Both the position numbers and the translations under genes were made by a program. A model generated the notes under the pieces. The model searched no databases. It worked only from the letters and a program-made list of their open reading frames with translations, and was not told where the DNA came from. From Ilex aquifolium (lineage: Eukaryota > Streptophyta > Magnoliopsida > Aquifoliales > Aquifoliaceae), in the NCBI GenBank assembly GCA_951799425.1, contig OX637393.1, positions 25,376,744-25,440,743 on the forward strand: a stretch of DNA of 64,000 nt, written 5' to 3'. Below, in pieces: positions 2,018-64,000 of the stretch. Position 1 is the stretch's first letter. Every line of letters starts with the position of its first letter.

Positions 2018-2408
2018 CTACCGGAAGGTGTATGTCGGCCTTCCGGAAGGTTTTGCTAAAAACCCTGGATGCCTTGTTCACAGCTAATACCTTCCGGAAG
2101 GTTTTGCCCACTGGAATGAACCTTCCGGAAGATTTTAGCTACTGGAGTAAAACCTGCCGGAAGGACTTGTCTACTGGAATGGACCTTCCGGAAGGTTTTG
2201 CCTTGGGTTTCTTTTTGACTGCCAAAATCTTCCGGAAGGTTTTGTTTTCTGGAATGAACCTTCCGGAAGGTTTTGGCTACTGGAATGAACCTTCCGGAAG
2301 GTTTTTGCTACTGATGTCGACCTTCCGGAAGTTCTTGCATTTGATTCTTTTCATTTAACTGTTCTTTCAGCGACCTTCCGGTAGGTGTATGTCGACCTTC
2401 CGGAAGGT
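2018..2408 (+). repeat. Minisatellite with palindromic core CCTTCCGGAAGG
   Basis: About a dozen copies of a self-complementary core (CCTTCCGGAAGG and one- or two-base variants) are separated by spacers such as GGTTTTGGCTACTGGAATGA. The array lies about 235-625 bp before the 3' end of the LTR. The related LTRs at 56001-56170 and 62818-63015 carry an array at the matching place but with a different palindrome. Confidence 0.85.
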
Positions 2409-2642
2409 TTTCCAAAAATTTGAAATTTTCAGAATGCTTAGCCATGCTTTTGGGCTTTGTTTTCTTTGGTTCCTATGACATAAATGGACATAAATTGAGG
2501 TATAATTGACCTTGTGGATGGTAAATCTGGTTAAAAACATGTGAATGACGTGGTGTCGGGTTATACGACTATCACGAGTATTTCCGCGGGTTGACGGATG
2601 GTCAACGGTTAATAAAGGACCCCCGGGTTTTGGGGCGTCACA

Positions 2643-3060
2643 ATCATGGGCTTTGGTTTGAATTGAATTAGGATTCTTACATTGTTTTGGTATGATATTG
2701 AATTGGGTTTTCTGAATTGGATTTTTTGAATTGAGTTTGCTTTGGTTTGAATTGAGTTTGCTGGGTTTTCGGAATCTTGAGTTTGCTGTATGATCATTGA
2801 GTTTGGTGGATGGTATTTGCTGGATGATTATTGGGTTTTCTGATTTGGATTTTTTGCTGGATGAAATTTGATATTGAATTGTTCCTTTTGTTCCTTTTGG
2901 TTTGCTGGTATGATTTGTTGTTCTATGATCATTGGTTTGTTGTACTACCAGAAGCTACCACCATATCCTCACATCTCCACTTATTGCTATCAAACTCCAC
3001 TGTCCCAAACATCAAATGCATACTTACTGTAATGCACTTCAAGTGTAATTTTACTCATTA
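2643..3060. other. T-rich non-genic DNA next to the LTR
   Basis: The sequence is low in complexity and rich in TTGAATTG, GAGTTTGCTG and similar loose repeats. I see no credible open frame, RNA gene or element end. Confidence 0.5.
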
Positions 3061-3167
3061 ATTCATTCACTCTCACCCAGCAACAGTGCACCGTAGAACT
3101 CATTAATCAATTCAATCACAGACAACATTTCATAAATTCATTCACTCTCACCCAGCAACAGTGCACC
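3061..3167 (+). repeat. 31-bp direct repeat, two copies 75 bp apart
   Basis: A stretch beginning ATTCATTCACTCTCACCCAG occurs at 3061-3091 and again at 3136-3166 with no difference. It looks like a recent local duplication. Confidence 0.8.
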
Positions 3168-3199
3168 ACAGCAACAATGCAGAGCGGCTTCAACATCCA

Positions 3200-3400
3200 A
3201 CGGTCTCAAATCCGTTGATCAATCCAACGGCTATTAATACTCTTTCATTTTCCCCCCCAAATTCATCTCTTTTTACTGATTATTTTTCAAAATCGGCCAT
3301 CACTTCATCTGTCAGAGATGCAGCCTACCCCTACACCTCTTTTTTATTTTTTTTTCAGACCTCTCTCAAGCCATGCCTCTGCCTCTGCTTCCTCCGTCAA

Positions 3401-3451
<51 letters not shown>

Positions 3452-3578
3452 ACACCTCAGCGACACCACCAGCGACACCACCACCACCAACGTCTCTCTT
3501 CTTCGTCTCTCTATCTATCTCCTCCTTTGCGAGCTCTCTATTCCCTCTCACCCTTCACCGGCCACCAAACCAACCCAG
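3200..3578 (+). other. 5'-UTR-like leader with CT microsatellite and a splice-donor-like end
   Basis: This pyrimidine-rich block with a (CT)n run at 3408-3448 resembles a plant 5' UTR. It ends in ...AACCCAG followed by GTAAGC at 3579, a good donor. Open frames through it are low-complexity Ser/Leu/Pro and unconvincing. It may be a transcript leader or a captured piece of one. A second block of the same character lies at 6060-6290. Confidence 0.35.
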
Positions 3579-5466
3579 GTAAGCTCTTCTCCCTCTCCCT
3601 CTTTCTCCCTCTCTCTCTCTCTCTCCCTCTCTCTCTCACCTCCCTCTCTACGCACGCACACACAGTCACACAGTCGAACAAACACAAACACACCCCCACC
3701 TAGCCAGAGCACGCAATCACAGTCACATACACACACATCATGGCACACCCAATATGTTAATCTAGGGTTTTGAATTGGGTGTTAATTTAGGGTTTTGAAA
3801 TTGGGTGTTAATTCCTCTACAAGCTATTAAGGAGCATTTCGTATAGAAATTGGGTGTTTTGAATTTGTGATTGTAAATTGTGAAGATAGCTTTTTGATCT
3901 ATAACTTTCTATACGACCTTTTCCATATAGAAATAGCTGGTAAGTAGATCATTGAGTGAAGCTCTTTTTTTTTAGTAGCTGAACCTCATGGTTCTGTTTT
4001 TTGGAGTATAGTTGAACATGTTGGTTGTTCACCTTGGTGTCTCTTTTGGTGGATGATGATATTAAACACACGTGATAGTGTTTGTTTTTATTTCTTACTT
4101 TTACCAGTGTTTTATTTCTCTCTTTTAGGGTGTGGTTATGAAACCAAAAAAATTTATATACAGGTTTAAATGTTTATGAGACTGTTATTAGAGGGAATTT
4201 TGCCAAAATTTTTAAATTTTTTTGACTTCATAGCCTTGACGTGGGATGAATGAAGTAAGAGTGACGTAGACAACAAACAAGTTTTATTACAAACTTACAT
4301 AGTTATCCTCATCAATGTTCCAGATTTTCTTTTGCGCCTTTAAGGCCTCTGCCATGGTCTTTGATTTCATTAAATGTAGCATACATACAGAGAAACATAT
4401 TTTAGGGGTAAAAGCATTTGGGTGGCAAGTAGAATTTTTTTGGTACTTCTGTTTGATGATTTATGTCTCTATTTCTTTTTGGGTTTGGATTTTGTTGCAC
4501 CTTAAGCTACTTCAAGGTGGTGGTTATGCTCATTGCCATTAACCTGTTGTTCATTAGGATTTGTTCAATTGTGATAAAAGGTTTGGCTTAAACTTTTTGT
4601 GCTTCTGGACCTTTGAAGGTACTTTTAGCTCTATCTGCTTGTTTTGGGTAATCCCAGATCCTAATGGTTTTTGCTTAGTATGTCTAAACCTGAAACATAA
4701 TTTTACCTCTTTGTTCTGCTACAATGCAATCCTATTTCCTGCTTTCCCTTGGTTTTTTGTTCAATTCTGTAAAGGTACTTTCTTTGACAGTTATTAGAGA
4801 GTTTCACCAACACCTTGCTACATTATGTAAGCCTGGACAGATCTACTCATTCTTGAGTGGCTTGTGTGAAGATAATGCCTTTTTTCACGGTCTACTGTTA
4901 GCTATTTTCTCTATAACTTCAAGATTTGGTACCTTGCCTGTTAGAAATTGTTTGGGAGAAATAAGTCTGGGGGTGAAATATTAATATTTAGTTAAGAGAC
5001 ATTATCTCCCTGTTTGTCGGTTTATAGTACACTGGATTCAAATATATTTTTACTCTCATATTGTCTTTTATTTTTTGAATATAATTTCATTTTACCAACC
5101 ATCTACTTGGAGTTGCCTACTTAAGTCCAACCCCCTAGCCACCCACCAAATAACATCCCAATTCCAAATTAATTTTTTTTCTCTCGGTTCATGGGCTCAA
5201 ACACCGAATCTAAACTCCTAATTGATAATTATATTCTTTAATCTTTGTTTTTTGTTTTGGGCTTAAAGAATATTCTTTATTCTTTGTTTTTAGTCCGAAT
5301 CTAAAGTCTTTCTCTTTCTCTTCCTCTTTTTTTTTTTTTTTTTCCAGCTCTCTGATGTTGAATATTGATTTTTTTTTTTTTTTTTTGGTTTGGCTTAAAT
5401 GTGTTTTCAAGTGATAATCTTTTTTGTTTTGGTCTTACCTATAATTTTCATCATTGTGTTTTCCAG
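3579..5466. other. AT-rich, intron-like DNA
   Basis: T-rich sequence with poly-T runs near 5325-5345 and 5371-5387, and a CT-rich start (3590-3650). I see no reliable coding frame. It could be an intron between the leader ending at 3578 and the exon-like piece at 5467. Confidence 0.4.
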
Positions 5467-5553
5467 TTCACTAGGTACCCATGTTGCTTGATGGAGTCAA
5501 GTTTACTTCAACGAGGAACAGAGATAAACCTTGCACTTTCAAGCTTTGCCATG
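5467..5553 (+). pseudogene. FKBP-type peptidyl-prolyl isomerase exon fragment
   Basis: After a TTCCAG acceptor (to 5466) one frame reads LLDGVKFTSTRNRDKPCTFK, ending at a GT donor at 5554. This resembles the core of plant FKBP domains, which have LLDG-x-KFDSSRDR...F-F-LGQG. FKBPs isomerise X-Pro peptide bonds. The start of the exon does not keep the family's VHYTGT-LLDG frame (an in-frame stop and a slip occur there), and the conserved GQG becomes CHG. I see no neighbouring FKBP exon, so this is a decayed or captured exon, not a working gene. The call rests on one motif. Confidence 0.45.
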
Positions 5554-5881
5554 GTCAGTGAATTCTTGAACTCTGAGCAAATTTTTTGCTTATAAAATTG
5601 TGTAAATACCCACTTTTGTTACTTGACAATTTATGGTGTTGTGGTCATTCATTCATTGTTTGTGCAATTTGGAATGGTGTTTTCTAGCATGGAATGCTAC
5701 ATCTTTGGTTATGCACATGGTTAGTTTGATGAAATTTCTCATGGAAACATGGTTATTTGGATTGAATGAACAATAGGCACACTTTTGATTCTTGATTTTC
5801 ATAGTTTAATTTCTTTGGTGTTAAGCTTTAAGGGTTTACAATACTACTTGATTAAGAGGAGGATATGTGTGTGTTTTGAAG

Positions 5882-5936
5882 GTTGAGAAGCGCTTTGGTA
5901 ATGCTTCACTCATGGAATCAGTGATGAAGCGCTCTG
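5882..5936 (+). pseudogene. Exon-like segment, unidentified (phase-matched to 7130)
   Basis: Flanked by AG (to 5881) and GTAAG (from 5937), the frame reads VEKRFGNASLMESVMKRSG and ends in phase 1. Joining it to the segment at 7130-7215 keeps the frame open to a stop. I do not recognise the protein. It could be the last part of a small gene or a piece captured by the Helitron whose 3' end lies at 10131. Confidence 0.35.
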
Positions 5937-7129
5937 GTAAGAATTCTTCCTATTACACATTTCCATTTTTTGAATTGAAATTTGGTATTTGTTTGTTACA
6001 AATGAGATACAAAATTTTCTGAACTGGAATCTTATAGGATTGATAGTTCTTTTTGCCAATCCTCCCTCTCTATCCCTAGCCACCATCACCGCCTCACCTA
6101 TCTCTCTTACCCTCTGTCCTAACCCCTGCAACTGTTCACACACACACACAAAAATTTACACACGCTGCTTCACACACACGCAGACAGAATCAACACAAAA
6201 CTCTGCTTCCTCTCTCTATCTCTCATCTCTCCAAACATTTCCAGCCCTTGCACCTCCACCTCCAGCCACCACCACCACCCTGATTATTGAATTAAAATTA
6301 TTGTTAGTTTAATAAAGTGTATATAATGCATTTGAAAAAAGGATTATATGGTACTTGAACCACCCACTGTTAATTTGATAAAATAAATATAATGTGTATT
6401 TGTAAGTAATTATGTTTTCCCTACTCTATGGGTATTTGTAATTGGTATGTTGGATTTTTGTGATAGATAGAACATGTAAATTGAATATCAAGCATACCTT
6501 TTTTTTATAATTAATTTTTGTTGGGTCTGTGATGGGTTAATAAGTAGTTGTTTCAGTTATTAAGCATACTTATTTTTTTTTTAAAGAAAAGTTAGAGTGA
6601 GCATGCCGGAGAGAGTCTCCACCTTTTATGATTACCTCTTTAATTATTGACACTTATTGGTTGTGGTATGACTTTTCTAGATTTTCTTTTTAACCTTCCA
6701 TGTCTTTTTTTATACTGAATGGGAAACTTAATTTGATCGATAGTTTTTATGGCTTTCAATGCTATGGACTTCTTAGGGTGTGTTTTTTGCTTCAATTTGC
6801 TATGGGTGGTTTTATCGTTGTGTTGCAAATTCCCTAAGCTTTTCTTCTTTTCCTTCGTTTTGCCAGCTGAAAATTTGTTTAGGCTTTACTTAAACGGAAT
6901 TTAGTAAACACAAGATGTTGAAGATGATACGTTGTCGTATGTTCAATATGCTGCATTGTTGTGCCTGATATGAAATTTGTGTGTCGGGGTTCAGAAGATT
7001 CACGATATAAGGTCACATATAGAAAATATGCTACATTGAGATTCACGATTCAGATGTTACTTTCCAAAAAAAAAGAATAGTAAGATGTTACCTGCTATGG
7101 ATGGTGACCTTGATCTGTTATGTGAGCAG
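5937..7129. other. Intron-like DNA with a CA-rich leader-like block and first copy of a direct repeat
   Basis: It includes a pyrimidine/CA-rich block (about 6060-6290) and a direct-repeat copy at 6501-6597. No supported coding sequence. Confidence 0.4.
6501..6597 (+). repeat. Direct repeat, copy 1
   Basis: About 97 bp starting TTTTTTATAATTAATTTTTG recur at 8057-8195. The second copy holds about 43 extra bases in the middle; outside these the two are nearly identical. Confidence 0.75.
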
Positions 7130-7215
7130 TAGCAGTACAAGTAATCCAAATGAGGGATGATTTCGTCAGTGATCCAACCATGCTCCAGTATAGGTGGAAT
7201 CAGCCAGCCCAATGA
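7130..7215 (+). pseudogene. Exon-like segment ending in a stop, unidentified
   Basis: After GAGCAG (acceptor, to 7129) the frame, completed by the phase-1 base of the exon ending at 5936, reads VAVQVIQMRDDFVSDPTMLQ and then YRWNQPAQ and a TGA at 7213-7215. Acidic and hydrophobic spacing looks protein-like. I do not recognise the family. Together the two segments give a 46-residue C-terminus. Confidence 0.35.
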
Positions 7216-10104
7216 TTTATGTAATGTATTTTTACCATGTTTTTGCTTCAGAGGAAGTCAGTAGGAATGTCAAAAGATCTTTTCTTTCGGTGTGTCACAT
7301 TGTGATCATAATTTTCCTTTTCCATGCTGGGATGAGATTGTGTATTATATCTTTGTACAGATTCTTTTTCATGACATCGGTGTCTTATTCCTGCATGTTG
7401 TTTGTCGTTGAAATAAATAATTCTATTCAACTTGGTTGTTACAAACCGCAGACTGGTAAAAGTAATGATGCTTTTGGTGGCAGAGCAAGGAGTGCTTGGA
7501 CAAAGTTGCTCAAACAATTTCTTTTCTTGGGCTGCCAGGAGAATTATACTTGCTTCTACTCACAGGTATGTGTTTTACCACTTACCAAATCATAATAGCC
7601 TATGCTATGGTAACATATTGATACTTTGGTAAGTAGCACAGAAATAAGGAAGAATATTTAGTGGTCTCAACAATGATCTGGTGTGCTGATTACATACTTA
7701 CCCCCTTTTTCCCCAAATGATGGGGCTAAGAGTTTATACTATGATTATGCACAGGGGAGGTACAAAAGGGCAGGGCTGCAGAGCTCCTGTAAAATATTTT
7801 TGTTACACCTAGAAAAATGGATTCTAAGTTTCTAACTTTTCATGGAGTATGCACTCCTCAATATTGAAATAGCATTTGGGATTGTGCAATTCTGGCACGC
7901 ACTAGGAACAACTTATGAGGTTCTCAACTTGTACTCAAAGGCGGAGCTACTTGAGGACCAGGGGGGCCACATGCCCACCCCCATTTTTTTTTTTTAAATA
8001 TTACTTATGTATATTTCAAATAATTTGAAGTATATTTAAGTGTGCCCACTCTATCATTTTTTATAATTAATTTTTGTTGAGTCTGTGATGGGTTAATAAG
8101 TAGTTGGGATATGCCAAGACATTGACATAAAGATTTTGATAATCATCTTTTCAGTTATTAAGCATACTTATTTTTTTGTTTAAAGAAAAGTTAAGAGTAA
8201 ACCTTTGTTTATATGGAATATACAACAAAGGATCTTTGCATGGTAAATACAGCTGCCCCAAGCTTTCTATATTAAACTTACTTATTACTTTTGTATGAGG
8301 CAAAGTTATATATCAAGCTCACAATTCTTTTGCAACAAAAGAAAACTATTTTTCTTATTTTACTGTACATATATGTTGACACGTTGGATAGCTGAAAAAC
8401 CCTTATTCCCTCCTAATGCATAGTCCTAATGCATTGACAACATATGTATGTAGTTGTTTAGCATGAATGAGTTTCATTTTTTATTTACCTATTTTTTTTT
8501 TTTTGGAAATTTTTGCGTACAATGTATCAATTAGGTTGATTTTTTTTTGCATAAATTAAATGTTAATGACGTTCGGCAATTGTGATTGATCCATGCTAAA
8601 CATTGCAATGATCAAATTAGTTTGCATTTCATATATCGGTAATATGAATTGTTTGGGTTTAAATTCAACTATTGATTGTTTTGGTTATTTGATTCAAAAA
8701 TAGTGCATATAGGCAATTAATATTCAGCTGGGACAAAGTGAATTGGCTTGCTTTGGAGTCATGAAATTTGATTAGTTTTTATATGGTTTAGATTATGTTC
8801 TATGCATTGAATGGGCATATAATTTATATTGCAATCGTTTCTAGCTAGCCTTCTTTATGGATTGAATTCATTGTGCTACCACTTTTAGGAATTGCAACTT
8901 TGCTTACACTATTGTGGGTTTCTCCTTATATCCCTCTAGATATATATGTGGATGATGAATGAATGTGTTTATTTTTGTGGATTTTAATAACAAGTAGTTT
9001 ACTATTTCTCAATAGGAAAAAAATGAGGTAAGAGTTGTTGGATATTACTGATCAATGGAAATTTATGATGTGTTGATATGTTGGTCAATTTTTAGAAGGT
9101 TGTTGAATGTGAGGGGAGACAAGAGTTGGATGAAACAACCGAGGCAGCAAAGAGGATAGCCATAGAGGGCAGTCCATGGTTGCAATGCTTGAGTAGTACG
9201 TTAGGTGCATGAATCCACTTCTAAGTTCTACAGGAAGAATGAGAGGGTGGTAGTATAGTTTGATTACTTTCTTTTGATGCTCTGTTGTGGTAAACAATTA
9301 TGATCGTGTCTTTTTTCTTTATTTCCCAGTTTTAAGTACATAAATCTTGCATGGATTCAGCTATACTTTTTGGATAATGAATTGTTGTTATAGTGATATA
9401 TTGCTTCACTTTTGAGTGTGATATGAAGTTGTATTTTTTTAAACATTGGAATATATTATGAATCGGTGGTGACATTGGGGTTTTATGTGTTCATAGTTTG
9501 GAATTATTTTGTTATTGTAGAGTTGTTACTTCCATTCGATGAGGTTTTCTACAGAAGTTGTACCGAAATGTATTACTTCAGTCTGTCATGGTATAATGCT
9601 AGAACTAATAGGGATGATCTTTGTGTTAAAAGATACTAAGAATGATTTTTACATCTATGTGATATTATAGTTTTGATTTCTTCATTGTAGTTTTGGCGGC
9701 AAAGACTGCGTTGATTGGATCTATACAAACGTGGGCTTGATTTTCTCTTCAAAGCCAATGGAAGCACATTTCGTGAAAGAGAGACTACAATCCAGTAGTT
9801 TTTATTGGATTCAAATTATGTAAAATTGTTATTTATTTTTATTCTAATTTCATGTGGTGCTTTTCCATTAGTTAAATATCATAATTGGGAATGTATGATG
9901 GTGAATTTTGTGGCTTTAAAAAGTTTATGATTATTGCGGTTGGTTTATTATATGTTTTTTGATTTAATTATGCACTAAGTAAGAAAATTCGGTGTCATTG
10001 CTTTGAGGAATAGTTAACGACTGGGTCATCTAAAATTTAAGGAAGCAACAAATATTAGGTTGGCAAGGATGGACATTTATTTGCGGTTTCTTATTTGTTA
10101 CATA
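7216..10104. other. Non-genic DNA up to the Helitron terminus
   Basis: It holds direct-repeat copy 2 (8057-8195) and a phrase near 7938-7985 (GGCGGAGCTA...GGGGGGCC) that resembles element termini common in plant genomes, whose partner I could not find. A short exon-like stretch ends at a donor near 7566. The remainder is AT-rich with no credible frame. Confidence 0.4.
8057..8195 (+). repeat. Direct repeat, copy 2
   Basis: Second copy of the segment at 6501-6597, with an internal stretch (GGATATGCCAAGACATTG...) that copy 1 lacks. Confidence 0.75.
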
Positions 10105-10131
10105 GTGCCTTTAGGCACGGGCAATTACTAG
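10105..10131 (+). mobile_element. Helitron-type 3' terminus
   Basis: A perfect hairpin, GTGCC (10105-10109), loop TTTA, GGCAC (10114-10118), is followed after 9 bases by CTAG (10128-10131) and then T. Hairpin + CTRR + T is the standard 3' end of rolling-circle Helitrons, which often carry captured exons. The exon-like pieces between 3.2 and 7.6 kb fit that. I could not find the matching 5' TC end, so the element length is open. Confidence 0.6.
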
Positions 10132-17583: not shown

Positions 17584-20500
17584 TACATGATATGTTGCGG
17601 TACACTATTTTAAGATAAATAATACACACTTCGATAACAACCCCAGTGCTAATTGAAAGAATTAATCTAACTATATGATTTGCAGAAGCATGGAAAGAAA
17701 ATTACTTACCACAAAAAAACCATGGAAGGCAAGATAATTACAACAGGACTGATCTGATAAGTGATAACCATTGCCACAGGTCACCATTTACAAGAATTAA
17801 AGCTTCAAACAGATCATACGGAGAGCTCTCAATGCCTGATACAGACATATCATTCGTGTCATCCAGCAGGCCAGGCACTGATCGTGTGTTCCCCTTTTTC
17901 TCTGGAGCTCAAGAAATGGCTATCGCCCCTCGGCTTTCAAGCGGCTCAGATGCCAGTACTAGAGTAAGCTTCGGGTCACCATTCTCAGCAACCAGATCAT
18001 CTGATGGAAATAACATGTATGGCAGCTTCTCAACGAGTTCACAAGAAAGCACGAGTATGCCGTGGTCATCATCACAGAACCTGGTATGCACATGAAATTC
18101 CACAACATATAATTGTCAACGGTTCAGAACCAATTATTTTACACATTGTAAGAATGGGCATGAAATATAATGTCCTGGCAAAATCGAAGTAAAGTAGGAA
18201 AACAACTATAAATACAATGCTACCAAATTCTGGAACTATCCAAGTGTATGCAACCCCTCTGCCCTTTTTTTTTTCCTCTCCTTTTCTCTGTCCAATACTA
18301 TTTGACGTAATGACATTGAGTTGACTCCCCAAAGAACCTCAGTTGAGAAGTATTTGTAACATATGGAAGTTTTTATATATACTAAATATTAAAAAACAAA
18401 AAACAAAAGTTCAGAATTCCTAACCTAGTGTCAAATCAATCCATTACAGATAGTGGGATAGACAAACAAAAAAGAGAAAGGAAGTACTGATTTCATATAT
18501 ATTTTTTGTGATGCCTAGTATTAATACACAATTATCTTCTCTAAGATACATTCTGCAACCTCAATGAAAAGTTGCCTACAATATTTCAATTTCTCCTTAA
18601 CTGCATTACGAATTTATGATGTTAAGACCATTGTTGCATCACTAACCAGCAGCCTAATTTTGGCATCACATTTGGCTTACAATGTTGCACCTGGTGTAGG
18701 ATTTTAACAGTACATAGTAAAATACACACTGCAGTTTTAGTTGATTATCCCATTCTTCAGGAACTGTAAATTTCCCTCAAAGCTGCCTAACACTAAAAAG
18801 TGTAGCTTCAAAACTCATGCATGATCATAAGAATTCCCACAGCGGGATGTGTTGAAACTCAACAGCAGGGATTGAGTGCAGAACCATTGCACTAAATGCT
18901 TTCTCAAACGTATAGGATGATGTGGAATCTGAGATGAGGAGGCTTAAGCAAGAGCTCAAGCAGACCATGGACCTGTACAGCACAGCCTGCAAAGAAGCAT
19001 TCTCAGCAAAACAGAAGGTACTGGGTTAAGGTTCAAAGTCTTGATTTGCAACTATTTGGTCTTCCATCACAATATATGGATAAGAAGATAAAGACATATA
19101 CATACATTTAAGCCAAGAAATTTACAAGAAAAAATGTAATATCACATATTAACCATCAATTTTAAGCATCCAAAGCAAAAATCAGTTTAAGTTATAAATT
19201 TGTGTACAGGCATTGGAACTTCATCGTTGGAAAATGGAAGAACAACAGAGATTAGAAGAGGCACGGCTAGCTGAGGAAGCAGCATTGGCGATTGCAGAGA
19301 AAGAGAAAGCAAAGTGTAGAGCAGCCATTGAGGCAGCTGAAGCAGCTCAGAGGATTGCCGAACTCGAAGCACAAAAAAGAATCAATGCAGAAATGAAAGC
19401 ACTCAAAGAAGCAGAAGAGAAAAAGAAGGTACTGGATGTGCTAGCAAAAAATGATGTTAGATATCGCAAATATTCAATTGAGGAGATTGAAAGAGCAACA
19501 GAATACTTTGTGGAGTCCCGCAAAATCGGGGAAGGAGGCTATGGGCCAGTATACAAGTGTTGTTTGGATCATACATCAGTTGCAATAAAAGTTCTTCGTC
19601 CAGATGCAGCTCAAGGAAGGTCACAGTTTCAGCAAGAGGTGTGTACTTACTGTGCTCCAACTAAATTACAGAACTCAATCCTTATATATCACTTCCATAA
19701 CTGGCAATGTAATATATAAGATAATAAGATCACTAATACAACTTGGTAGGCTCATAAAGTAAAGGATCCAAAATCAATTATTAAATTAAATAGACAATAC
19801 TTAGACCTTCTATTCTAGAAGATCCTTATATATGAGACCGAGATTTGAGCTTCACCTTAATATTCCACGTAATCAAGATTAGAAATTACTTCAAATGCAA
19901 CAACCAGTCCAGTGCCTATGTGGAGCCCTAATGGTAAGACAACTCAACAAGACACTTTTCTCCAACTATTTGTGGTTGGCCACAGGAACCCTCTTTCTCC
20001 ATTGTGCTTCCCAATGGTAAGACTCAGGCAGCAAATAATATCTCGGATCCAACCATTGTTATGGTCTAAATAATATAGGATATTCTACATTAACTACACC
20101 CAAAAAGCACAATTTTTTACTTACAATCTTTTCGACCGTTCTGAATTCTGATGCAGGTTGAAGTTCTAAGCTGCATACGACATCCCAACATGGTTCTCCT
20201 CCTGGGAGCCTGCCCAGAGTACGGGTGCCTAGTCTATGAATACATGGCCAATGGGAGCTTAGAAGATCGTCTCTTCCGACGAGGAAACTCTCCGGTGCTT
20301 CCTTGGCAACTAAGATTCCGTATAGCTGCAGAGATTGGCACTGGCCTCCTTTTCCTCCACCAGACCAAGCCAGAGCCCCTAGTGCATCGTGACCTGAAAC
20401 CAGGCAACATTTTGCTTGACCGTAACTATGTCAGCAAGATTAGCGATGTTGGCTTAGCCAGGCTCGTCCCTCCATCTGTAGCCGACACTGTAACCCAATA

Positions 20501-50861: not shown

Positions 50862-53742
50862 TGTTACGCCCCAAAATTTGGGTGTCCGTAATTACCCCTT
50901 GATCATCCATCAACCTGCAAAATACTCGTGGATACCGTGTAACTCGATACCACGCTGTTATGCACCATTTACCGGGATCCATAACTTAACAAAATTCGGG
51001 CAAAGTCTCCTTTGTACGGGGAGCTCTAGCCAAAACACAACATGTGCAATCATACAACATTGACCATACCGGGTCCATTTATCCATACTCATATAATAAT
51101 ATATAATTTTACATTAAACATAGTCCATATGAGTTTGATTATAATCCTTTACACACATTACATGCCCAAAAACTAATTGACATCTTAGTTTTATAAAAAC
51201 ATAGTTTAAAAGCCACATTTCAGCTTTTCTTCATCAATGAGGGCTCAGATGAGAGCCATCCACAGGCTCATGTCTCGCACCTGAAATATTGTACTCATAA
51301 AGGGTGAGCCACGCTCAATAGGATATCTCCTAAATAGACTACTCCCAAACCTAGATGCATATGAAATGTTCACATATAATTCATAAGCAATAATCACTCC
51401 ATTCAAGAATATACAATTCAACAATGGAATCCTCAATACCATGTCATGATATGAGATGAGACTCACACATGCAACTCAACCCGAGCCCTTACCGGCTCCC
51501 ATAACACATGCAATGCCATGAGTATAAAACTGGACATTCCAAGATCTCGCCATTGATGTTGTAAATCCAATGACCTTTTAAAATAAACCATGTTTCTTTG
51601 TTGGGTAGCAGGATTTGGGTGTCTCACCGCCGGTTCCGCACACCGATACACTTTTTTGGACTTTCACCGACGGAATTGTATAAACCAGTAACCGGGTCTT
51701 GCACGCGAGGGAGAATCTAGCTCTACTTGCTATACCCGACACAAATTTTTCATGCAACCCATGCGAATCTATCGAACCTTGATCCAACTATACCGAGCCC
51801 ACTTATCAACCACCAAGAATGGTGTTTGATCCAACAACATGCACACACACCACAATCATGTCAATTGCCCACGAATGTGATGTTACCCGTGGAATATGCA
51901 AATGTAATGAACATTGCATTTCATATACTTATGCAACCAAGATTTCAATTGAAATTACAATACCATGTTCAATATGTTATGAGCACATTATGAACAATTT
52001 AATATCCAACAACCTTTTCCATGGTAAATTACATCATAAGCATATAACCACTATCAACAACCTCAATGTCAATATATCATATGTATATATCAACATTTTT
52101 CAACCTCAAATTTCAAGCATGTTATAACATAATCAATGCAAATAACACACTTAATCCACATACACATTTAATCAAACACCTTCAAGGCACCAAATCATGA
52201 AAATACATAATGTGCTCAATTTCAACACAAATCTCAAGAAATCACAACAAGTGATTTCTACATACCCAATTCATGCTAGAATTGATTTTAATCTTTCTTA
52301 ATACCCATTTTCCACATTTCAAGTACCATAGGTAAGTGCTAAACATGAGATTTCATCTCCAACACCCTACCCTTTCCATATATATTTCAAGCATGTTATA
52401 ACATAATCAATGCAAATAACACACTTAATCCAAATAGGCATTTTATCAAACACCTTCAAGGCACAAAATTATGTAACACATATTATGCCCAAATAATCAC
52501 ATTTCTCAAGAAATCACAACAAGTGATTTCTACACACCCAATTCATACTAGAATTGATTTTAATCATTCTTAATACCCATTTTCCACATTTCAAGTACCA
52601 TAGGTAAGTGCCAAACATGAGATTTCATCTCTAACATCCTACCCTTTCTATATATATATTCCAAGCATGTTATAATATAATTAATGCAAATAACACACTT
52701 AATCCAAATAGGCATTTTATCAAACACCTTTAAATTACAAAATTATGTAACACATATTATGCCCAAATAATCACATTTCTCAAGAAATCACAACAAGTGA
52801 TTTCTACATACCCAATTCATACTAGAATTGATTTTAATCATACCCATTTTCCACATTTCAAGTACCTATATTTTTCATAAATTTACCAAACAAGTAAATT
52901 GTACAAATCCAATTCATGCAAGATTGGTTTAGCATATTTTTATACCCATTTTCCACACTTTATTTACACTAGGAATATATTAAACAAGAGAATTCATCTC
53001 AAGTCATGGTACCCATATCATATGGAACCCTAGGTTGAAAATAAATCTAATTAGGAAAAGAACCCTACCTCTTGAACAGTAAAACAACGATAGGAAGCTC
53101 CAAGAACCCGAAACAAGCTCTAATCCAAGCTTTTCTCAAAATCTCATCCTTGTAACTTCACCCAAATCTAACCTTCTTGGTATGGTTTTGTAGCCCTCGA
53201 TGAGGAGAACATCTTTCGTTCTTGGCTTGCGTTGATTCGAACAACGTAGAGACATAGATCTTAGAGAGAAGGTGGAGCTTCCCTCTCTTCTTTTGATTTT
53301 TTTGGATAATCTGATGGGTATGGGGAGAAATCTGATTTTTCTGCTCTATTTATACCCTTTAAAAGCTTGGTCCTCATCACGTCACACATTCCTCGTTCCC
53401 AGGCCAGATTTCGTTCCGAAACGATTAAATTTCGTTCCGGTTCAAGTTCAAAATATTTTTATATGAAATTTATTTAAATTATTTTTAAAATTTTTAAATT
53501 TTATTCCATATCTCATTTTTAGGTCACGCGACACTCGATCGTCTCGTGAAACGTAAAAAATCTGACTGTCTCTGAATTTAACGAAAATTGATTGGGTAAC
53601 TAGATTGCGCGAGACGAATCCAACGGTGAAGTCCGTTTAGTCATTCGAGTTCTATAAAAATTTGAGTTTTCAACCCGTACTGTAATGATAAATTACCGTT
53701 TTACCATTTTTCACAAAAATTCAAATTTACCCAGATTTTACA
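50862..53742 (-). repeat. 5' LTR of the old chromovirus
   Basis: TGTTACGCCCC... to ...CAGATTTTACA, 2,881 bp, with a TATA box (complement TATTTATA, 53347-53354) and a ~274-bp tandem array at 52121-52866 (starts at 52121, 52395, 52669). Confidence 0.88.
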
Positions 53743-55713: not shown

Positions 55714-58610
55714 TGTGACGCCCCAATCTCCGGGGGTCCTATATTAACCGTTGACCACCCGTCAACCCGCGGAAATACCCATGGATGTCACTCAACCTAA
55801 CACCACGGTAGTAGCATCCCCTTAACCGGGATCTTAATTCACAATTGTTAACCGGATTCGATTATTCATTTGGGTTCAACCAATATTCAATATACCATGA
55901 TTTATACTCCCTTATAGTCCATTTACATCATTGGAGGGAAAGGAAACGTAGATTGAAAATAGGGCGAAGCAGTGTGAAAATCTAAAAATTTTGAAGAGAG
56001 TACCGGTACCCAGTACCGGTACCATTCAGTACCGGTACCCGGTACCGGTACTGTCAACCCACTGGAAAGGGGGTACCGGTACCCGGTACCGGTACTGTCA
56101 ACCCACTGGAAAGAGGCTACCGGTATCCAGTACCGGTACCATTCAGTACCGGTACCCAGTACCGGTACTCTCTGCCCAGTTTTGCCATTTTCAACCATTT
56201 TTCATTTTCAATCCATTCAAAACCCTTCCCAATTCATCAAATACATGTTTGACAAGGATTTCCATATAATACATAACTTATACAAGTTCCATTACAGTTC
56301 ATTCCATAATTTACACATCAAAATGGAATTTTAAGAAAAGTTTTACAACACTCAAACCAAGGCCACAAGCCGGCCCCCTTCATGCTTGATGCTCTCCAAG
56401 TGAGCCATCCGCCGGTGCAAAACCCACACCTGAAATGTTTTTCCCATAAAGGGTGAGCCACGCTCAATAAGAAATCCTCCTACAGAGGCTACTCCCCAAC
56501 CTAAGTGCATATGAATTGTGCACATGCAACAATCAACAAACATCAACCAATCCAACAAGAGTATACACTACTATGTTAGAGTGCACCATGCTATGCCATG
56601 CCAAGATATGAGATGGAACTCACTCATGAACCTTAAACCGAGCGTTTACCGGCTCCCACCACACAATGCAAAAGCCAATGTGTATGAACCCGTCTATTGA
56701 CGGAAAAACCCTCCCAATGATCGTTTGAATTAAAAGTTAGGTCTTTTTAAAAACCCAATCATTGTTTGAGGCTACCCATTGAATGGGTGTTTTTATACAA
56801 CAAAATCTTGTGTCTTCCTGGGCAACGGATTTTGGAATCGCACCGCCGGCTCCGTGGGCCTATCTACACTTTTTGGACTTGCACCATAGGAGTGTATGAA
56901 CCAGTGGTTCCGGGTTTTTCACCCGAGGGAGTGTCTAGCCCTACTTGCTTTACCCGACACAAGTTTTCCTTATGCAATGCAACCGTGCAACTCAGTCGGA
57001 TCTTCGATCCCGACTTTCCCGAGTTCACATACAAACCACCAAGATTTGGTGTTTGATCCACAACCCATGCACACACCCACACTCATGCCTACGACCCATG
57101 AATGCGATGTCAACTCACCCACACACACTCATGTCTTATAACCATGAATGTGATGTACCCATGAGAATGCAATGTAGTGTACCCTTGCATCTTCTCCACA
57201 TGTTCAATATGTATGAATGCCATATGAACAACTCAACAATAAATCTACATATCCATGGTACTTCATATCATAAGCATATGCATATAAATACCATAATTCA
57301 ACACTTTGTCAACACCTCGTAAGCATGTGTATATCAACATTTTCCTTAATCACAATATCTAAGCATGTTATACATAGTTCATGCAAAACATACTTAACAT
57401 TTTCGTCAAAGCATTTACTCAACACCTTCAAGGCATCCAAGATCATGTAATCACATAATATACTCAAAATTCATCATAAAACTCAAGAAATCATATTAAT
57501 TGATTTCTACACAATTATACCAAGATAGAATTCGTTCTACCCATAACATAACCTCATATGTCATAATTTCTCAAGAAATTATCAACAACCATTCCTAAAT
57601 GTCCATTTCATTTAGGAATTCACTTTACCCAATTTCCCATGTCAATTTTCCTTTAACTTTTTATTAAATTTACCCATCAAGTAAATTTATATACCCATTT
57701 CATACCAACCTTGCTTAGCACATTTGGTACTCATTTCCCACACATGAAATGCATTAGTGGTACATTAAACTAGAGAATGTGATTTAAATCATGCTACCCA
57801 TTCTCAATACCCATTTCACCCAAATAACCACAATAGGCAAGTGATACATATATATATACACCTACCCATTCCATATAACCCTCCTAGGTTGGAAATAAAC
57901 CTAAGTAGGAAGAAAACCCTACCTCTTGTAGCGTGTAGAATCGCCGTGGGAAGCTCCTAGAACTCAAAGCAAGCTTGAATCCTCCACTTCTAAATTTTCG
58001 GCCTCCCAACGTTCGGTGAAAGCCGTTGTTTTTGATGTCCACGCGTAGCCCTCGTCGAGTAGAACAATCTTTGTTCTTGGCCCAAGTGGATTCGAGCTCT
58101 ATAATGGAGTAGATCGTAGAGAGAAGTTTTGGAGAACCCTCACTCTCTCTCTCCTTTCTATCGGCTGAGCAATGAGCAATTATGTGGGAAAAATTAGATT
58201 TTCCCCCTATTTATATTTTTAGAATACTTGGCCCACAATTGGCCACACGCCCCTTTTAATTCCGGGTTCGTTTTAATCCCGAAACGATTAAATTTCGCTC
58301 CGGTTCGAGTTCAAAATATTTTTATTTTAACTTGTCTCTAATATTTCCCCAAACTTGGAAATTTTATAAAAATTTCGTGTACAGGGTCACCCGGGGTCCG
58401 CTCGTCTCGTAAAACGCAAAAAATCCGACTATCTCGGAATTCAACGAAATTTGACGTGGTAACTAGATTTCACGAGACGAATCCAACGGTGAAATCCGTT
58501 TCGTCATCCGAGATCTAGAAAAATTCAGTTTTTTTTTTTCTACTAGTACCGAAGTGGCAATTCACCTATTGCCCTTGTTCGTCAAAGTTTAAATTTTCCG
58601 GAGTTTCACA
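55714..58610 (-). repeat. 3' LTR of the young chromovirus
   Basis: TGTGACGCCCC...GGAGTTTCACA. TATA box complement at 58208-58215. The matching region of the 274-bp array in the older element is single-copy here. Confidence 0.9.
56001..56170. repeat. Minisatellite with palindromic core GTACCGGTAC (3' LTR copy)
   Basis: Alternating TACCGGTACC cores and short spacers (CATTCA; TGTCAACCCACTGGAAAG). It is 29 bp shorter than the partner array at 62818-63015. Confidence 0.9.
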
Positions 58611-58739
58611 TTCTTCCCCCCTTAAAAGAATTTCGTCCCCGAAATTCACGAACACCTACACACTTAACCGCATGCATATGTAACAAGTAATAGTATACTT
58701 GAAGTTGGTAAAAAAAAATTGTATTTCCATCCTAGAATA

Positions 58740-59815
58740 ATAACGAATAGCTAGTACTTGCGATGTTCTCACGCTTCCATGTCGGAATGACGTTCTTCCA
58801 AAACCATTACCCTCCACCTCGATGCTGCCACCGCACCTTCACCAGCCTCACGGTCTTGCCCCGCAAAACCCGTTCCCGGCTATCCATGATACATACCGGA
58901 CCCTCCTCAAAGGTCCCATCCGTATCAACAATCAATCCTCCCCAATTCATCACATGTGTCGGATCTGGAGTATGCTTCTAGAGGATCAAGACATGGAATA
59001 CTGCGTGCACACCTGATAAATTTGGCTGTAACGCCCACCTGTAAGCCACTGTACCCACCCTCTCGATTACTTTGAAGGGCCCGACATACCTCGGCGTTAG
59101 CTTTCCCCCGCTTACCAACTGGATCATTCCTCTTTTAGGCATCACCTTCAAGAAAACGTGATCACCGACCTCAAACTCCAGAGGTTGTCGCCGTCTATTG
59201 ACATAACTCTTCTGTAGGCTCGGTGCCATGAGAAGACGCTTCCGTAACAAGTCCACTTTCTCCGAGGTGTCTCTAATCAAACCCGAACCCGTAAAGGGTC
59301 TCTCTCGCACCTCCGTACAACAAACCGGAGAACGACAAGGCCTCCCATAAAGGGCCTCGTAAGGTGTCATCTGTATGCTCGCCTGATAACTATTGTTATA
59401 AGCGAAATCCGCTAAGGGTAGATACTCCTCCCAAATACCCTTGAGGTCTAGGACGCATGCCCACTGCATGTCCTCTAAAATCTGGATGGTCCTCTCCGAC
59501 TGATCGTCCGTTTAGAGATGAACGGCAGTGCCCATCATCAGCCGTGCCCCCATAGCTCGCTGGAAAATCTCCCAAAAGTGAGCCGTAAACCTGGGATCTC
59601 GATCCAACGGCACCCCATGTAACCAGATTAATCTTCCGTGTATACAACCTGCAGAATTCCTCCAGTGTGAAGGTCATCCGCACTGTCAAAAGGCGTGCCG
59701 ACTTAGTAAGCCGGTCCACTCTCACCCGCACCGCATCATGTCCCCGCGATGTCCGTGGCAAGTGGGTCACAAAACCCATTGTGACATGCTCCCACTTCCA
59801 CTCAGCCACCTCCAA
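58740..59815 (-). CDS. Integrase region of the young chromovirus (fossil)
   Basis: Parts recognised are MGFVTHLPRTSRGHDAVRVR (start of the core), FAYNNSYQASIQMTPYEALY GRPCRSP, the GPY/F module [20 protein letters not shown], and a chromodomain-like start (RGKTVRLVKV) below 58900. A fossil copy, broken. Confidence 0.8.
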
Positions 59816-59839
59816 GAGCTAGAGCAGCTCTGTTAGTAT

Positions 59840-60355
59840 CTAGTGCCCAGCCTTCACCTGTCGACATGTGAGACATCTACTGACAAAGTTTTCAACGTGT
59901 CTCTTTATTCTACTCCAATAACACTGGTGATGAAGATTATGGTACATCCTCGTGCCACCTAGACGTACCCGGTCCCTGATAGATAACAAATCTGGGTCCT
60001 GTTCGTGGGAATCGATCACTCTGCTCAGTAGGGAAGGCATAGTCACCAAGCTCCCTAAAATACCCTGAGTCTGACCCCGATAATACAGCCCGTACTGTCC
60101 CACACTCTCAAGCATCTGCCACTCTCGGTGAGCCACACTAGCCACAAGTTTCTGTAACTTCCGGCTAAGTGCATTAGTTACCACATTTGCCTTACCAGGA
60201 TGATAACGCAAAGTGAAGTCGTAACCCTCCAAATATTTCATCCACCTGCGTTGCCTCATGTTGAGGTCCCGTTGTGTAAAGATATATCTCAGACTTTTGT
60301 GGTCTGATAACGCCTCAAACTTCTCACCATATATGTAGTGGCGCCAAGCTTTCAA
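59840..60355 (-). CDS. RNase H end and integrase zinc-binding region of the young chromovirus (fossil)
   Basis: KAWRHYIYGEKFEALSDHKS and LRYIFTQRDLNMRQRRWMKY mark the RNase H end; HNLHHQCYWSRIKRHVENFV SRCLTCRQVK is the HHCC zinc-binding module at the start of integrase. Confidence 0.85.
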   Translation of the reverse strand: MKAWRHYIYGEKFEALSDHKSLRYIFTQRDLNMRQRRWMKYLEGYDFTLRYHPGKANVVTNALSRKLQKLVASVAHREWQMLESVGQYGLYYRGQTQGILGSLVTMPSLLSRVIDSHEQDPDLLSIRDRVRLGGTRMYHNLHHQCYWSRIKRHVENFVSRCLTCRQVKAGH

Positions 60356-61297
60356 GGCAAGATAATGGCCGCCAACTCCATGTCACGTATAAGATAATTT
60401 TGCTTGTGGTTCTTTAGTTGTCCAGAACCATAAGCCACCGTTCTCGCGGACTACATTAATACCCATCCATGTCCGTCCTTAGAAGCATCACAGTTCACTG
60501 CGTACTTCTGTTCCCTCTCCGGAACTACTAGAATAAGAGGTGAAGTAAGCTTCCTCCATAAATTTGGTCATTAGTACCAAAGCGCCCCAAGGTGAAGTAT
60601 TTGGTCTAACGAAGTCCTTGTTCAACAATTCTTGTATTCGGACCTAGAGTTTTCACAACTCTACTGGTTCCATTCTATGCAGAGTCATAGAAATGGGCGA
60701 TGTACCGGGATGCAACTCAATGGTAAATTCTACATTCCTATGTGTAGGTAATCCCGGTAGTTCATCCGAAAAATATCCCATACTCACAGACAACCCGAGG
60801 TAGACCCAACTCTTGTCTCACCTCGTCCTCCAAGATAAGGCTCACAAGCCAACCCATCTACCATTCGTGCCAACGGAAACCATACACGATTTGGGATAAA
60901 GAGTCGTGCTTTTCCCCCTGGAATTTGAAACAAACACCATTCGGTGTGTAAGCAGTGATCCTCTTACGATCACAATCAACGACGACGCGGTGTGCCGTCA
61001 ATCAACCCATTCTCAGGATGACATCAAACCCGACATGTCCACGACCCTAAGGTCCATAGTGAGTAGAGTCCCCGAGATCTCTAACTCACAACCGTCATAT
61101 CTGATCAATGCAGGCCCTAGTCCCTAAGGTGGAATTCACCCCTGAGGACTCTTCTAGGGTTATAATATTTAAAACTGTACCATGCACAAAACATGAAAAA
61201 TAACGGTATTTGACACGCCCAAGTCAAATAACACGTGTACCCATAAATAAGGAATAAGTGATATACCGTGGGTCGCTGCCTGATCCCCCGACTCACT

Positions 61298-62068
61298 CTA
61301 TGGTGCAACGTCAAAGACCGTTTCCTGGGTCTCCAATGTTGTCGCTTCAGAGTCTTGTTCCTGGCCTTGGCCCATGCCTTGGCTCATCCGGTCTGATTGC
61401 GGAGTCTCCGCACGTGGCGTACTAGGGACTTGTACAACGCCCTGTAGTTGGGACTGATTTCTCTGGTCCTTAGTGGAATAGGGAAGAACAACACGTGCCT
61501 GTGTGAGTCCCACCGACGACTGGGATTGAGAAGTCTCGGAACTCTGTGAGGTTTGCCTCAAGGGGCAATCCTTCCTCCTATGGCCCGGTTGTCGACAATA
61601 GAAACATGTCTTCTGGCCTCCTTGAAACATTCCCTTGAATTTCTTCCCTCCTTGGGACAAAAGATTTTGGGCTTGAACCCCCTCCTGTGATCCCTGCCTC
61701 TGAGGACAATCCCTCCTCTTATGCCCCACTTGGCGACAATGATAACATGGCCCCTGCCCCGCTTGGCTGGGAACCCTGAAGTGCCCACTACTTTGGGAGG
61801 TTTGCCCTTGGCCTTGGCCTTGATAGCCGCGGCCCTGCCCCGATGATTCTTGTGGGCTCGATGTCTTTTGCTTTTTCCATGGCCGTTGATGGCCCATGGA
61901 ACTTAAACTCCTTTGGATGGCTTGAGCCCCTTGGCTCAAATTGGCGCTTGCCTGTGCTAGGTTAGCAGCCATCGTACTCATAGCCTCCATATAGGCTTGT
62001 TGGTCCAAAGTCGGTAGTGGTTGGTTGTTCCGTCCACCGCCTAGACGTCCCTTTCCTCTATATGACAT
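61298..62068 (-). CDS. Gag-derived frame with two zinc knuckles (fossil)
   Basis: 256 codons from MSYRGKGRLGGG. Two CCHC knuckles, CYHCRQVGHKRRDCP and CFYCRQPGHRRKDCP, lie about 45 residues apart in a Gln/Ser/Gly-rich context. The N-terminal part is Gln/Ala-rich. A capsid-like core was not recognised. Most chromovirus gags have one knuckle. Part of a fossil element. Confidence 0.82.
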   Translation of the reverse strand: MSYRGKGRLGGGRNNQPLPTLDQQAYMEAMSTMAANLAQASANLSQGAQAIQRSLSSMGHQRPWKKQKTSSPQESSGQGRGYQGQGQGQTSQSSGHFRVPSQAGQGPCYHCRQVGHKRRDCPQRQGSQEGVQAQNLLSQGGKKFKGMFQGGQKTCFYCRQPGHRRKDCPLRQTSQSSETSQSQSSVGLTQARVVLPYSTKDQRNQSQLQGVVQVPSTPRAETPQSDRMSQGMGQGQEQDSEATTLETQETVFDVAP

Positions 62069-62515
62069 CTACACACATGTCAAATAGCAATGGTACAACG
62101 GCTTAGTATCCCTAGATAGGGACCAAAGTTAAAACGTTCAAATCTTTCTCACTGTCTCACTAGTAGGGGTATGCCTCCAATAGTGGACCCTTACGCTTTG
62201 AACTTTCCCGTTCATTTGTTTTCCCACTCCCAAGGTTAAGTTCTCTAAACACTAGGGTTAGAATACTTTTCACTATGCACATTCATCATGCATACAAGTC
62301 ACACAACAAGTAACACATAACATGTACCAAGTAGGGCACATAACATGTAGCAAATATAGCACATAACGTGAGATGCACATGAAATGCAATGGTCTAAAAC
62401 CCATGCCCATCAAGCCTTAGGTAAATCGTAAACCTAAGCTCTAAACCTCTTTCATTCTTGCAATGGAAGATGATAGACTCATTTCCCACAAGACCACATA
62501 AGATCTATAACCTAG

Positions 62516-62527
62516 GCTCTGATACCA
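62516..62527 (-). other. Primer-binding site of the young chromovirus
   Basis: The complement reads TGGTATCAGAGC (initiator tRNA-Met), three bases from the 5' LTR edge at 62531. Confidence 0.92.
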
Positions 62528-62530
62528 AGC

Positions 62531-64000
62531 TGTGACGCCCCAATCTCCGGGGGTCCTATATTAACCGTTGACCACCCGTCAACCCGCGGAAATACCCATG
62601 GATGTCACTCAACCTAACACCACGGTAGTAGCATCCCCTTAACCGGGATCTTAATTCACAATTGTTAACCGGATTCGATTATTCATTTGGGTTCAACCAA
62701 TATTCAATATACCATGATTTATACTCCATTATAGTCCATTTACATCATTAGAGGGAAAGGAAACGTAGATTGAAAATAGGGCGAAGCAGTGTGAAAATCT
62801 GAAAATTTTGAAGAGAGTACCGGTACCCAGTACCGGTACCATTCAGTACCGGTACCCGGTACCGGTACTGTCAACCCACTGGAAAGGGGGTACCGGTATC
62901 CAGTACCGGTACCATTCAGTACCGGTACCCGGTACCGGTACTGTCAACCCACTGGAAAGAGGGTACCGGTATCCAGTACCGGTACCATTCAGTACCGGTA
63001 CCCAGTACCGGTACTCTCTGCCCAGTTTTGCCATTTTCAACCATTTTTCATTTCCAATCCATTCAAAACCCTTCCCAATTCATCAAATACATGTTTGACA
63101 AGGATTTCCATATAATACATAACTTATACAAGTTCCATTACAGTTCATTCCATAATTTACACATCAAAATGGAATTTTAAGAAAAGTTTTACAACACTCA
63201 AACCAAGGCCACAAGCCGGCCCCCTTCATGCTTGATGCTCTCCAAGTGAGCCATCCGCCGGTGCAAAACCCACACCTGAAATGTTTTTCCCATAAAGGGT
63301 GAGCCACGCTCAATAGGAAATCCTCCTACAGAGGCTACTCCCCAACCTAAGTGCATATGAATTGTGCACATGCAACAATCAACAAACATCAACCAATCCA
63401 ACAAGAGTATACACTACTATGTTAGAGTGCACCATGCTATGCCATGCCAAGATATGAGATGGAACTCACTCATGAACCTTAAACCGAGCCTTTACCGGCT
63501 CCCACCACACAATGCAAAAGCCAATGTGTATGAACCCGTCTATTGACGGAAAAACCCTCCCAATGATCGTTTGAATTAAAAGTTAGGTCTTTTTAAAAAC
63601 CCAATCATTGTTTGAGGCTACCCATTGAATGGGTGTTTTTATACAACAAAATCTTGTGTCTTCCTGGGCAACGGATTTTGGAATCGCACCGCCGGCTCCG
63701 TGGGCCTATCTACACTTTTTGGACTTGCACCGTAGGAGTGTATGAACCAGTGGTTCCGGGTTTTTCACCCGAGGGAGTGTCTAGCCCTACTTGCTTTACC
63801 CGACACAAGTTTTCCTTATGCAATGCAACCGTGCAACTCAGTCGGATCTTCGATCCCGACTTTCCCGAGTTCACATACAAACCACCAAGATTTGGTGTTT
63901 GATCCACAACCCATGCACACACCCACACTCATGCCTACGACCCATGAATGCGATGTCAACTCACCCACACACACTCATGTCTTATAACCATGAATGTGAT
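62531..64000 (-). repeat. 5' LTR of the young chromovirus (partial)
   Basis: It starts TGTGACGCCCC and is nearly identical to 55714 onward (offset 6,817, then 6,846 after the minisatellite). It runs off the window. Confidence 0.93.
62818..63015. repeat. Minisatellite with palindromic core GTACCGGTAC (5' LTR copy)
   Basis: Same array as 56001-56170 with about one more core-spacer unit. Confidence 0.9.

Follow-up and report, generated by a model that had tools for sequence, protein, structure and literature searches.

Arrays of palindromic cores in retrotransposon long terminal repeats of Ilex aquifolium: a small set of words switched at homologous places

Introduction

Related retrotransposons of Ilex aquifolium carry short arrays built on different palindromes at the same place in their long terminal repeats (LTRs), and the stretch studied here raises the question of what such replacement preserves and what it may serve. 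That stretch (the window; 64,000 nucleotides, 37.7% guanine plus cytosine) comprises forward-strand positions 25,376,744 to 25,440,743 of contig OX637393.1 in assembly GCA_951799425.1; it sits on contig 3 of 103, the genome totaling 800,232,872 bases, and the whole genome was used for counts. We found that the arrays belong to a genome-wide system of short arrays in at least five element groups. We suggest, with confidence that is evenly balanced, that they are clustered candidate sites for dimeric DNA-binding proteins and act as exchangeable cis-regulatory modules of LTR retrotransposons, a reading drawn from comparison of sequences.

Arrays in the window

Direct reading and Tandem Repeats Finder (TRF) recovered all the arrays of an earlier, preliminary description of the window, within a few bases of the positions given there. 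Self-comparison of the window delimited four related LTR families (L1, A, B, and C; group T), and the arrays and LTRs are as follows.

14 to 2642, plus strand: T-type LTR L1 (2,629 bp), ends TGTAAAA...GTCACA, similar to other T LTRs; a purine tract (1 to 13) lies directly before it
2017 to 2407, plus strand: CCTTCCGGAAGG array of L1, with 9 exact CTTCCGGAAG and the hybrids CTACCGGAAG and CTTCCGGTAG
36804 to 37189, minus strand: CGTTCGAACG array of group W, with 6 exact cores and variants
55714 to 58610, minus strand: 3' LTR of element A (T type), from self-comparison
56000 to 56168, minus strand: GTACCGGTAC array in the 3' LTR of A, with 9 exact cores
62531 to 64000, minus strand: 5' LTR of A, truncated by the window end, 97.5% identical to 55714 to 57154
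62817 to 63014, minus strand: GTACCGGTAC array in the 5' LTR of A, with 10 exact cores
50862 to 53742, minus strand: 5' LTR of element B, related to A and L1, without a palindromic array
41835 to 47138, minus strand: 3' LTR of B, split by LTR C, without a palindromic array
42657 to 45071, minus strand: LTR C, probably solo, inserted into the 3' LTR of B, without a palindromic array

The L1 and A arrays lie at an equivalent LTR position, in L1 0.24 to 0.63 kb before the LTR end, and self-comparison and alignments agree with the original claim that the first two arrays occupy the same place in related LTRs. The arrays at 56000 and 62817 are real, but they lie in the paired LTRs of a single element and are not independent. 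In the related LTRs B and C of the window, no palindromic array was found at this position.

Distribution and abundance

Group T consists of Gypsy LTRs (L1, A, B, and C plus genome copies); stop-to-stop frames of elements A and B match Pfam domains including RVT_1, RNase H, and integrase zinc-binding, which we take to be of the Gypsy type. Group U is an LTR family with its array upstream of CTATAAATACTTAAGG, and Gypsy-type domains (RVT_1, RNase H, and integrase zinc-binding) adjoin a U LTR in L010 (genome pieces are numbered L001 onwards). The U TATA motif has 108 exact genome places; among 20 picked by hand, 18 contain at least one exact CGTTCGAACG, L035 has CGTCCGGACG, and L032 has variants only, the pieces L030 and L037 being interrupted by other sequence. 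Group V comprises L008 and L015, which are 65 to 77% alike beside the arrays; group W pairs the 36.8-kb array with L015, the two being 91% alike next to the array; and group X is a Copia element in L011 (RVT_2) with LTRs of 445 bp. The V arrays of L008 are borne by a 5,257-bp tandem unit (1 to 4743 and 5258 to 10000; 99.8% identity), and at 4657 to 4704 of L015 CCTTCCGGAAGG cores stand between CAAAACC and GGTTTTG, giving palindromes of more than 20 bp.

Chance was assessed on 264 kb, made up of the window and 20 pieces of 10 kb taken systematically at fixed places. A palindromic decamer was present at least three times within 400 bp in 10 locus/core combinations, 2 of these in one satellite (L018), and in none of five first-order Markov shuffles; with at least two copies required, the shuffles gave 0, 0, 0, 1, and 1. 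In 5 of the 20 pieces (L008, L010, L011, L015, and L017), one of a set of five cores stands at least twice within 400 bp. The genome copies of these five, with those of a reversed control that is also a palindrome of identical composition and the ratio to composition expectation in parentheses, number 51,910 for GTACCGGTAC (907; 153 times), 32,359 for CGTTCGAACG (278; 96 times), 22,728 for CTACCGGTAG (353; 67 times), 17,078 for CCTTCCGGAAGG (175; 1,418 times), and 8,992 for CGTCCGGACG (134; 72 times). Together there are approximately 133,000 copies, each core reaching 67 to 1,418 times expectation and 57 to 116 times its control.

In a first scan, 7 of 17 repeat clusters were palindromic; leaving out L001, a piece retrieved through a core, makes this 6 of 16. 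The rest were nonpalindromic. Repeats of ACTGGAAT around other cores were found at 25 places versus 11 for the control, with a gap limit too short for V units, so that the difference carries no weight. Palindromes outside the five are CGCCTAGGCG (2 copies, L012) and TGATCGATCA/TGGATATCCA in the satellite of L018, where a tandem repeat with a long unit (8145 to 9900) holds the palindromes ATGATCGATCAT and TTCGATCGATC, likewise outside the five. Matches to CCTTCCGGAAGG are crowded near the start of contig 1 (60000 to 192000), often in pairs 7.6 to 7.8 kb apart, like LTR pairs.

Replacement of cores at homologous places

Replacement was followed in group T at 20 places, chosen by hand for block variety among 100 listed of 1,968 T-block places and all on contig 1, a nonrandom sample. 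Palindromic arrays of four core types occur in 13 of the 20: nine are GTACCGGTAC arrays (L046, L047, L048, L052, L053, L054, L055, L063, and L064), one is a CGTACCGGTACG array split by an insertion (L045), and CTTCCGGAAG, CTACCGGTAG, and CGTTCGAACG are single cases in L056, L062, and L058, respectively. Five of the sampled places have no palindromic array (L049, L050, L051, L057, and L061), and two could not be judged (L059 and L060). Single exact cores are present in L053 and L056. TRF reported a palindrome-containing unit in 7 of the 13 array-bearing pieces; it reported none in L048, L053, L055, L062, and L045, and in L056 a 31-bp unit without an exact palindrome, because the copies in these six pieces are few or decayed.

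A tree of T flanks without their arrays (26 rows; L045, L059, and L060 excluded) requires at least five changes among five states and at least four among the array-bearing rows. The CTTCC and CTACC cores each require at least two changes, on well-supported branches, and they share flanks, as if a point mutation had changed the core. When six T array regions were aligned (mean column identity, 39%), L056 and L062 proved to have similar spacers and different cores. In group U, homologous LTRs bear CGTTCGAACG or CGTCCGGACG, two of them within L010, and in group V one of L008 and L015 carries GTACCGGTAC and the other CCTTCCGGAAGG. With four core types in T, two in U, and two in V, the earlier proposal that the palindrome is replaced while the layout and part of the spacer are retained was borne out.

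One T LTR, L058 (contig 1, 30617963 to 30618683), bears a CGTTCGAACG array in which the sequence between the cores (AGTACT ... AAAGTATTGGGAGTAAC) is similar to that of U, with up to 0.17 7-mer sharing with U pieces. This array may represent the transfer of a whole cassette between unrelated LTRs, a U-like cassette having possibly entered a T LTR.

Symmetry and the discrete set of cores

Symmetry and DISCRETENESS were assessed with CCGG or TCGA as the anchor and with all groups pooled. Complementarity across the anchor at offsets 1 to 6 was 0.72, 0.71, 0.67, 0.44, 0.27, and 0.36, versus 0.38, 0.35, 0.31, 0.29, 0.26, and 0.27 in a control with permuted right flanks; groups W and X, each with one core, gave no excess when taken alone. 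Past the exact core, excess symmetry extends over two further positions in T and one in V and is not clear in U, W, or X; it is limited to about 10 to 14 bp. A repeated anchored decamer is present in 40 of 56 pieces, and the commonest is a palindrome in all 40, by a tie in L055 and L031.

The space between the cores is thinly populated. The asymmetric intermediate CTACCGGTAC is at background level (938 places versus 1,250 for its control), and CTACCGGAAG exceeds its control (4,189 places versus 1,546) but is far rarer than either parent core; among the places listed it often stands at recurring fixed offsets of arrays like that of L1, in which it occurs twice. The palindrome GTTCCGGAAC, although a single step separates it from each of two real cores, is unamplified, with 129 copies versus 584 for its control. 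The suggestion that two-fold symmetry itself is selected is therefore not supported as worded, symmetry being insufficient; because GTTCCGGAAC is unamplified and the intermediates are rare, what appears to be kept is a discrete set of symmetric words and not symmetry alone. Each core consists of two inverted copies of a half-site, and the five half-sites (GGAAG, GGTAG, GGTAC, GGACG, and GAACG) form a one-step chain, a property of random sets of five at a frequency of 5e-6 to 1.8e-3 depending on the features held fixed; the test was made after the cores had been chosen, and adding CGCCTAGGCG and TGATCGATCA/TGGATATCCA would break the chain.

These data bear on a neutral, mutational origin, in which palindromes would favor slippage and fold-back copying, correction of quasi-palindromes would keep the symmetry, and arrays would owe their spread to successful LTRs on which they hitchhike and to chance recombination between elements. 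The variation in array length at one place, from one or two to at least 16 exact cores, is consistent with this, as are a 26-bp palindrome in L015 and the chain of half-sites, which look as if derived from one another (with the reservation on timing already given); palindromes next to minisatellites have been proposed as a cause of slippage in beet (PMC2820488). Such an origin does not lead one to expect a discrete core set in which a symmetric neighbor of two cores stays unamplified, excess symmetry that hardly extends past the core, or the reuse of cores by unrelated groups, three of which (U, W, and X) place them upstream of a TATA-like box, and we regard it as rather doubtful. Recognition of the cores by dimeric proteins is the reading that we carry forward.

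Spacers

The box ACTGGAA/TTCCAGT occurs 17 times in 4,705 bases of arrays with 40 bases on either side and 22 times in 259,295 bases elsewhere, a 43-fold higher density in arrays. Five of 10 array groups have it (L1, A, L008, L011, and U in L017); since L1 and A are the cases from which it was first described, fresh support comes from three of the eight other groups. The box also occurs in L046, L056, L062, and L063, where it adjoins three different T cores. The spacer word reported earlier is thus real in the first two arrays, but the 36.8-kb array is without it. Within a group, spacer sharing was 0.301 for arrays with the same core (n = 264) and 0.107 for those with different cores (n = 127); between groups, the corresponding values were 0.070 (n = 94) and 0.052 (n = 596).

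Promoter position, RNA folding, and CpG content

A TATA-like box, TATAAATA, is present in all four of the T LTRs looked at (L1, A, B, and C) and near the W array.

405 to 412, plus strand: TATAAATA of L1, about 1.6 kb upstream of the L1 array
36702 to 36709, minus strand: TATAAATA near the W array, about 95 bp downstream of that array in the minus sense

The W array is accordingly about 95 bp upstream of its box. In U, the core nearest the TATA motif, exact in 19 of 20 pieces, ends 51 to 202 bp upstream of it, and in X the cores lie at 48 to 160 of the 445-bp LTR, with TATAAAA at 193. We discarded a possible second TATA-like box beyond the T array on its downstream side, since it is missing from several array-bearing T LTRs.

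Folding of six arrays is much stronger than that of their dinucleotide shuffles (z, -4.9 to -10.3), and a nonpalindromic control gave a z of +1.6. This is compatible with pairing of the self-complementary cores inside one genomic RNA or between two, whether in hairpins or in dimerization signals of the kind found in retroviruses and Ty1, in which case only self-complementarity would matter; any palindromic array, however, folds well. Dimerization of Ty1 RNA is reportedly started by kissing loops (PMC5454406), and the T arrays, downstream of the TATA box, could be in leader RNA, but those of U, W, and X are upstream of it and therefore outside the leader. Single core changes show no bias toward keeping G-U pairs in the sense RNA (34 versus 38), though most such changes are probably postinsertion decay, and self-complementarity alone leaves the unamplified GTTCCGGAAC unexplained, so that we consider RNA pairing distinctly unlikely. 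Of the two functions originally put forward, the binding of a dimeric protein fits better, with the arrays of U, W, and X preceding a TATA-like box and symmetry confined to about 10 to 14 bp; RNA hairpins fit less well, given the G-U comparison.

C>T and G>A changes at its CpG sites make up 45 of the 51 single changes of CGTTCGAACG, as expected if these sites are methylated. The arrays might then be above all targets of host silencing through folding, small RNAs, and methylation, their cores changing under host attack, and in maize Sireviruses small RNAs are in excess on LTR regions with palindromic clusters (Bousios 2016, as reported in PMC10760457). The retention of a symmetric core is left unexplained by silencing, which we hold to be very improbable as the main role. 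The ratio of observed to expected CpG is 0.75 in the L1 array and 0.86 in those of A, versus 0.85 and 0.77 in the rest of the LTR, and 1.13 in W; there is no clear excess that would mark CpG islands at the arrays of L1, A, and W.

Interpretation

We favor dimeric proteins as the readers of the cores because dyad clusters precede a TATA-like box in U, W, and X, because symmetry is limited to the core, because the set of cores is discrete, and because both halves change jointly. The recurrence of the same cores in Gypsy (T and U) and Copia (X) LTRs argues in the same direction. Each core would consist of two inverted half-sites, and hence both halves would have to change together; proteins would bind the cores, binding would drive expression or escape from silencing, and recombination would move the arrays. 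Related elements might switch core partly by recombination that brings in complete arrays from other families, as could happen in template switching during reverse transcription.

Several observations weigh against this proposal, besides the neutral origin discussed above. The T array lies about 1.6 kb downstream of the TATA box, where it would have to be an enhancer or have another role. Eight of the 26 rows of the T tree, all without an array, form one side of a branch, so that a whole T clade lacks it. Against the strict earlier claim that symmetry is selected, the array-less T LTR L051 has a nonpalindromic 32-bp unit (2.8 copies; 64 to 151 in the element sense) near the array place. The spacing of cores is inconstant. 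Five of the 10 array groups are without the ACTGGAA/TTCCAGT box, which was not found in W, in the CTACCGGTAG array of L017, in the two V arrays of L015, or in the second U array of L010. The small difference in spacer sharing between groups (0.070 versus 0.052) only weakly suggests cassette exchange as a general route.

A more tentative extension, possible rather than probable, is that the cores form a small alphabet of palindromic "address words" common to unrelated Gypsy and Copia elements. Each word would have its own reader within a diversified family of dimeric proteins, whether host regulators or element-borne antisilencing factors; an element would change its address by swapping its array, and LTR families would compete for, or divide among themselves, the binding proteins of the host. 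Palindromic LTR motifs have been described as a speciality of Sireviruses. A discrete set that is common to Gypsy and Copia elements of one genome and switched among them makes the question of function testable, through the five words, the rare intermediates, and LTRs that are homologous apart from a naturally swapped array. Should the words prove to be read by a protein family, it would become clear how a retrotransposon alters its regulatory input and why the control regions of LTRs are replaced so quickly.

Other features of the window

The interior of element A and its reading frames were also described.

58981 to 62068, minus strand: gag-pol pieces of A, with Pfam matches of stop-to-stop pieces to zinc knuckle, RNase H, integrase zinc-binding, and Tf2-1-like SH3

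The interior of A, from LTR to LTR, has just five open frames of at least 110 amino acids, all on the minus strand; of the four that were scanned, three have gag-pol Pfam matches and one has no match. A coding origin of the arrays was set aside: the main period of the L1 array is 31, which is no multiple of three, and two frames over or beside the W array have no Pfam match. Element B has a tandem repeat of about 271 to 274 bp (2.8 copies) in both LTRs (45506 to 46270 and 52110 to 52866). The most conserved block of the T LTRs ends in TTTCAGGT (1730 to 1745 and homologous places), which resembles a 3' splice site, so that splicing of the T LTR leader is conceivable. At 19198 to 20921, frames that match protein kinases probably belong to a host kinase gene.

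Comparison with known systems

The closest precedent is provided by the RM boxes of Sireviruses (Bousios et al. 2010; PMC2829016), which are dyad-symmetric, palindromic repeated motifs in LTRs, different in each element and upstream of the TATA box. The arrays described here are alike in that a short dyad-symmetric motif is present in many copies inside the LTR and differs between elements, and those of U, W, and X also lie upstream of the TATA box, unlike those of T. In that study, RM boxes are described from 13 Sireviruses (Copia), are said to be absent from classic retrotransposons, are called Sirevirus specific, and bear a CGG-CCG signature; according to PMC10760457, the cis-region of Sireviruses is believed to be defined by palindromic motifs, which would attract small RNAs. 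The T and U hosts here are not Sireviruses, as judged by their Gypsy domains, and X is Copia by RVT_2; the five cores have a CCGG or TCGA center and not CGG-CCG (compare Table 3, PMC2829016); and one core set is common to several element groups of a single genome, with switching at homologous places. For RM boxes, at least eight copies per element and a CpG island are called for; exact cores, counted per array, number 9 in L1, 9 to 10 in A, 16 in L054, and 1 to 2 in L048, L053, L055, and L056, and the CpG ratios of the arrays are those given above for L1, A, and W. We class the arrays as working like RMs, and not as RMs, because they differ in host element and in the CGG-CCG signature. Among the matches listed in a search that mostly left subscription literature outside, no printed report of palindromic LTR arrays outside Sireviruses was found.

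Boxes of the Tnt1 type have two or three repeats, with sequences other than the five cores. Such cis boxes of Copia elements resemble the present arrays in being repeated, sometimes dyad-symmetric LTR boxes upstream of the promoter, and differ in that the excerpts of PMC2829016 describe no set common to superfamilies. The tandem repeats of Tat, Ogre, and Retand Gypsy elements are likewise short arrays in a noncoding part of plant Gypsy elements that vary by family, but they lie between pol and the 3' LTR, whereas the T, U, and X arrays are inside LTRs, and a palindromic core is unmentioned for them in the excerpts of PMC7004042 and PMC11963269. A dimerization signal of the retroviral type is a leader palindrome; the TATA box precedes the T arrays and follows those of U, W, and X. 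The targets of VANC in VANDAL transposons, read by an element-encoded protein, are also arrays of short motifs in noncoding transposon DNA, made by tandem repetition and differing between related elements (Hosaka et al. 2017; PMC5735166). Those motifs (YAGTATTAY and AGTTGTCC) are nonpalindromic and belong to DNA transposons, whereas palindromes in LTR retrotransposons are concerned here; VANC targets may nevertheless offer a parallel for arrays of motifs that change together with their protein.

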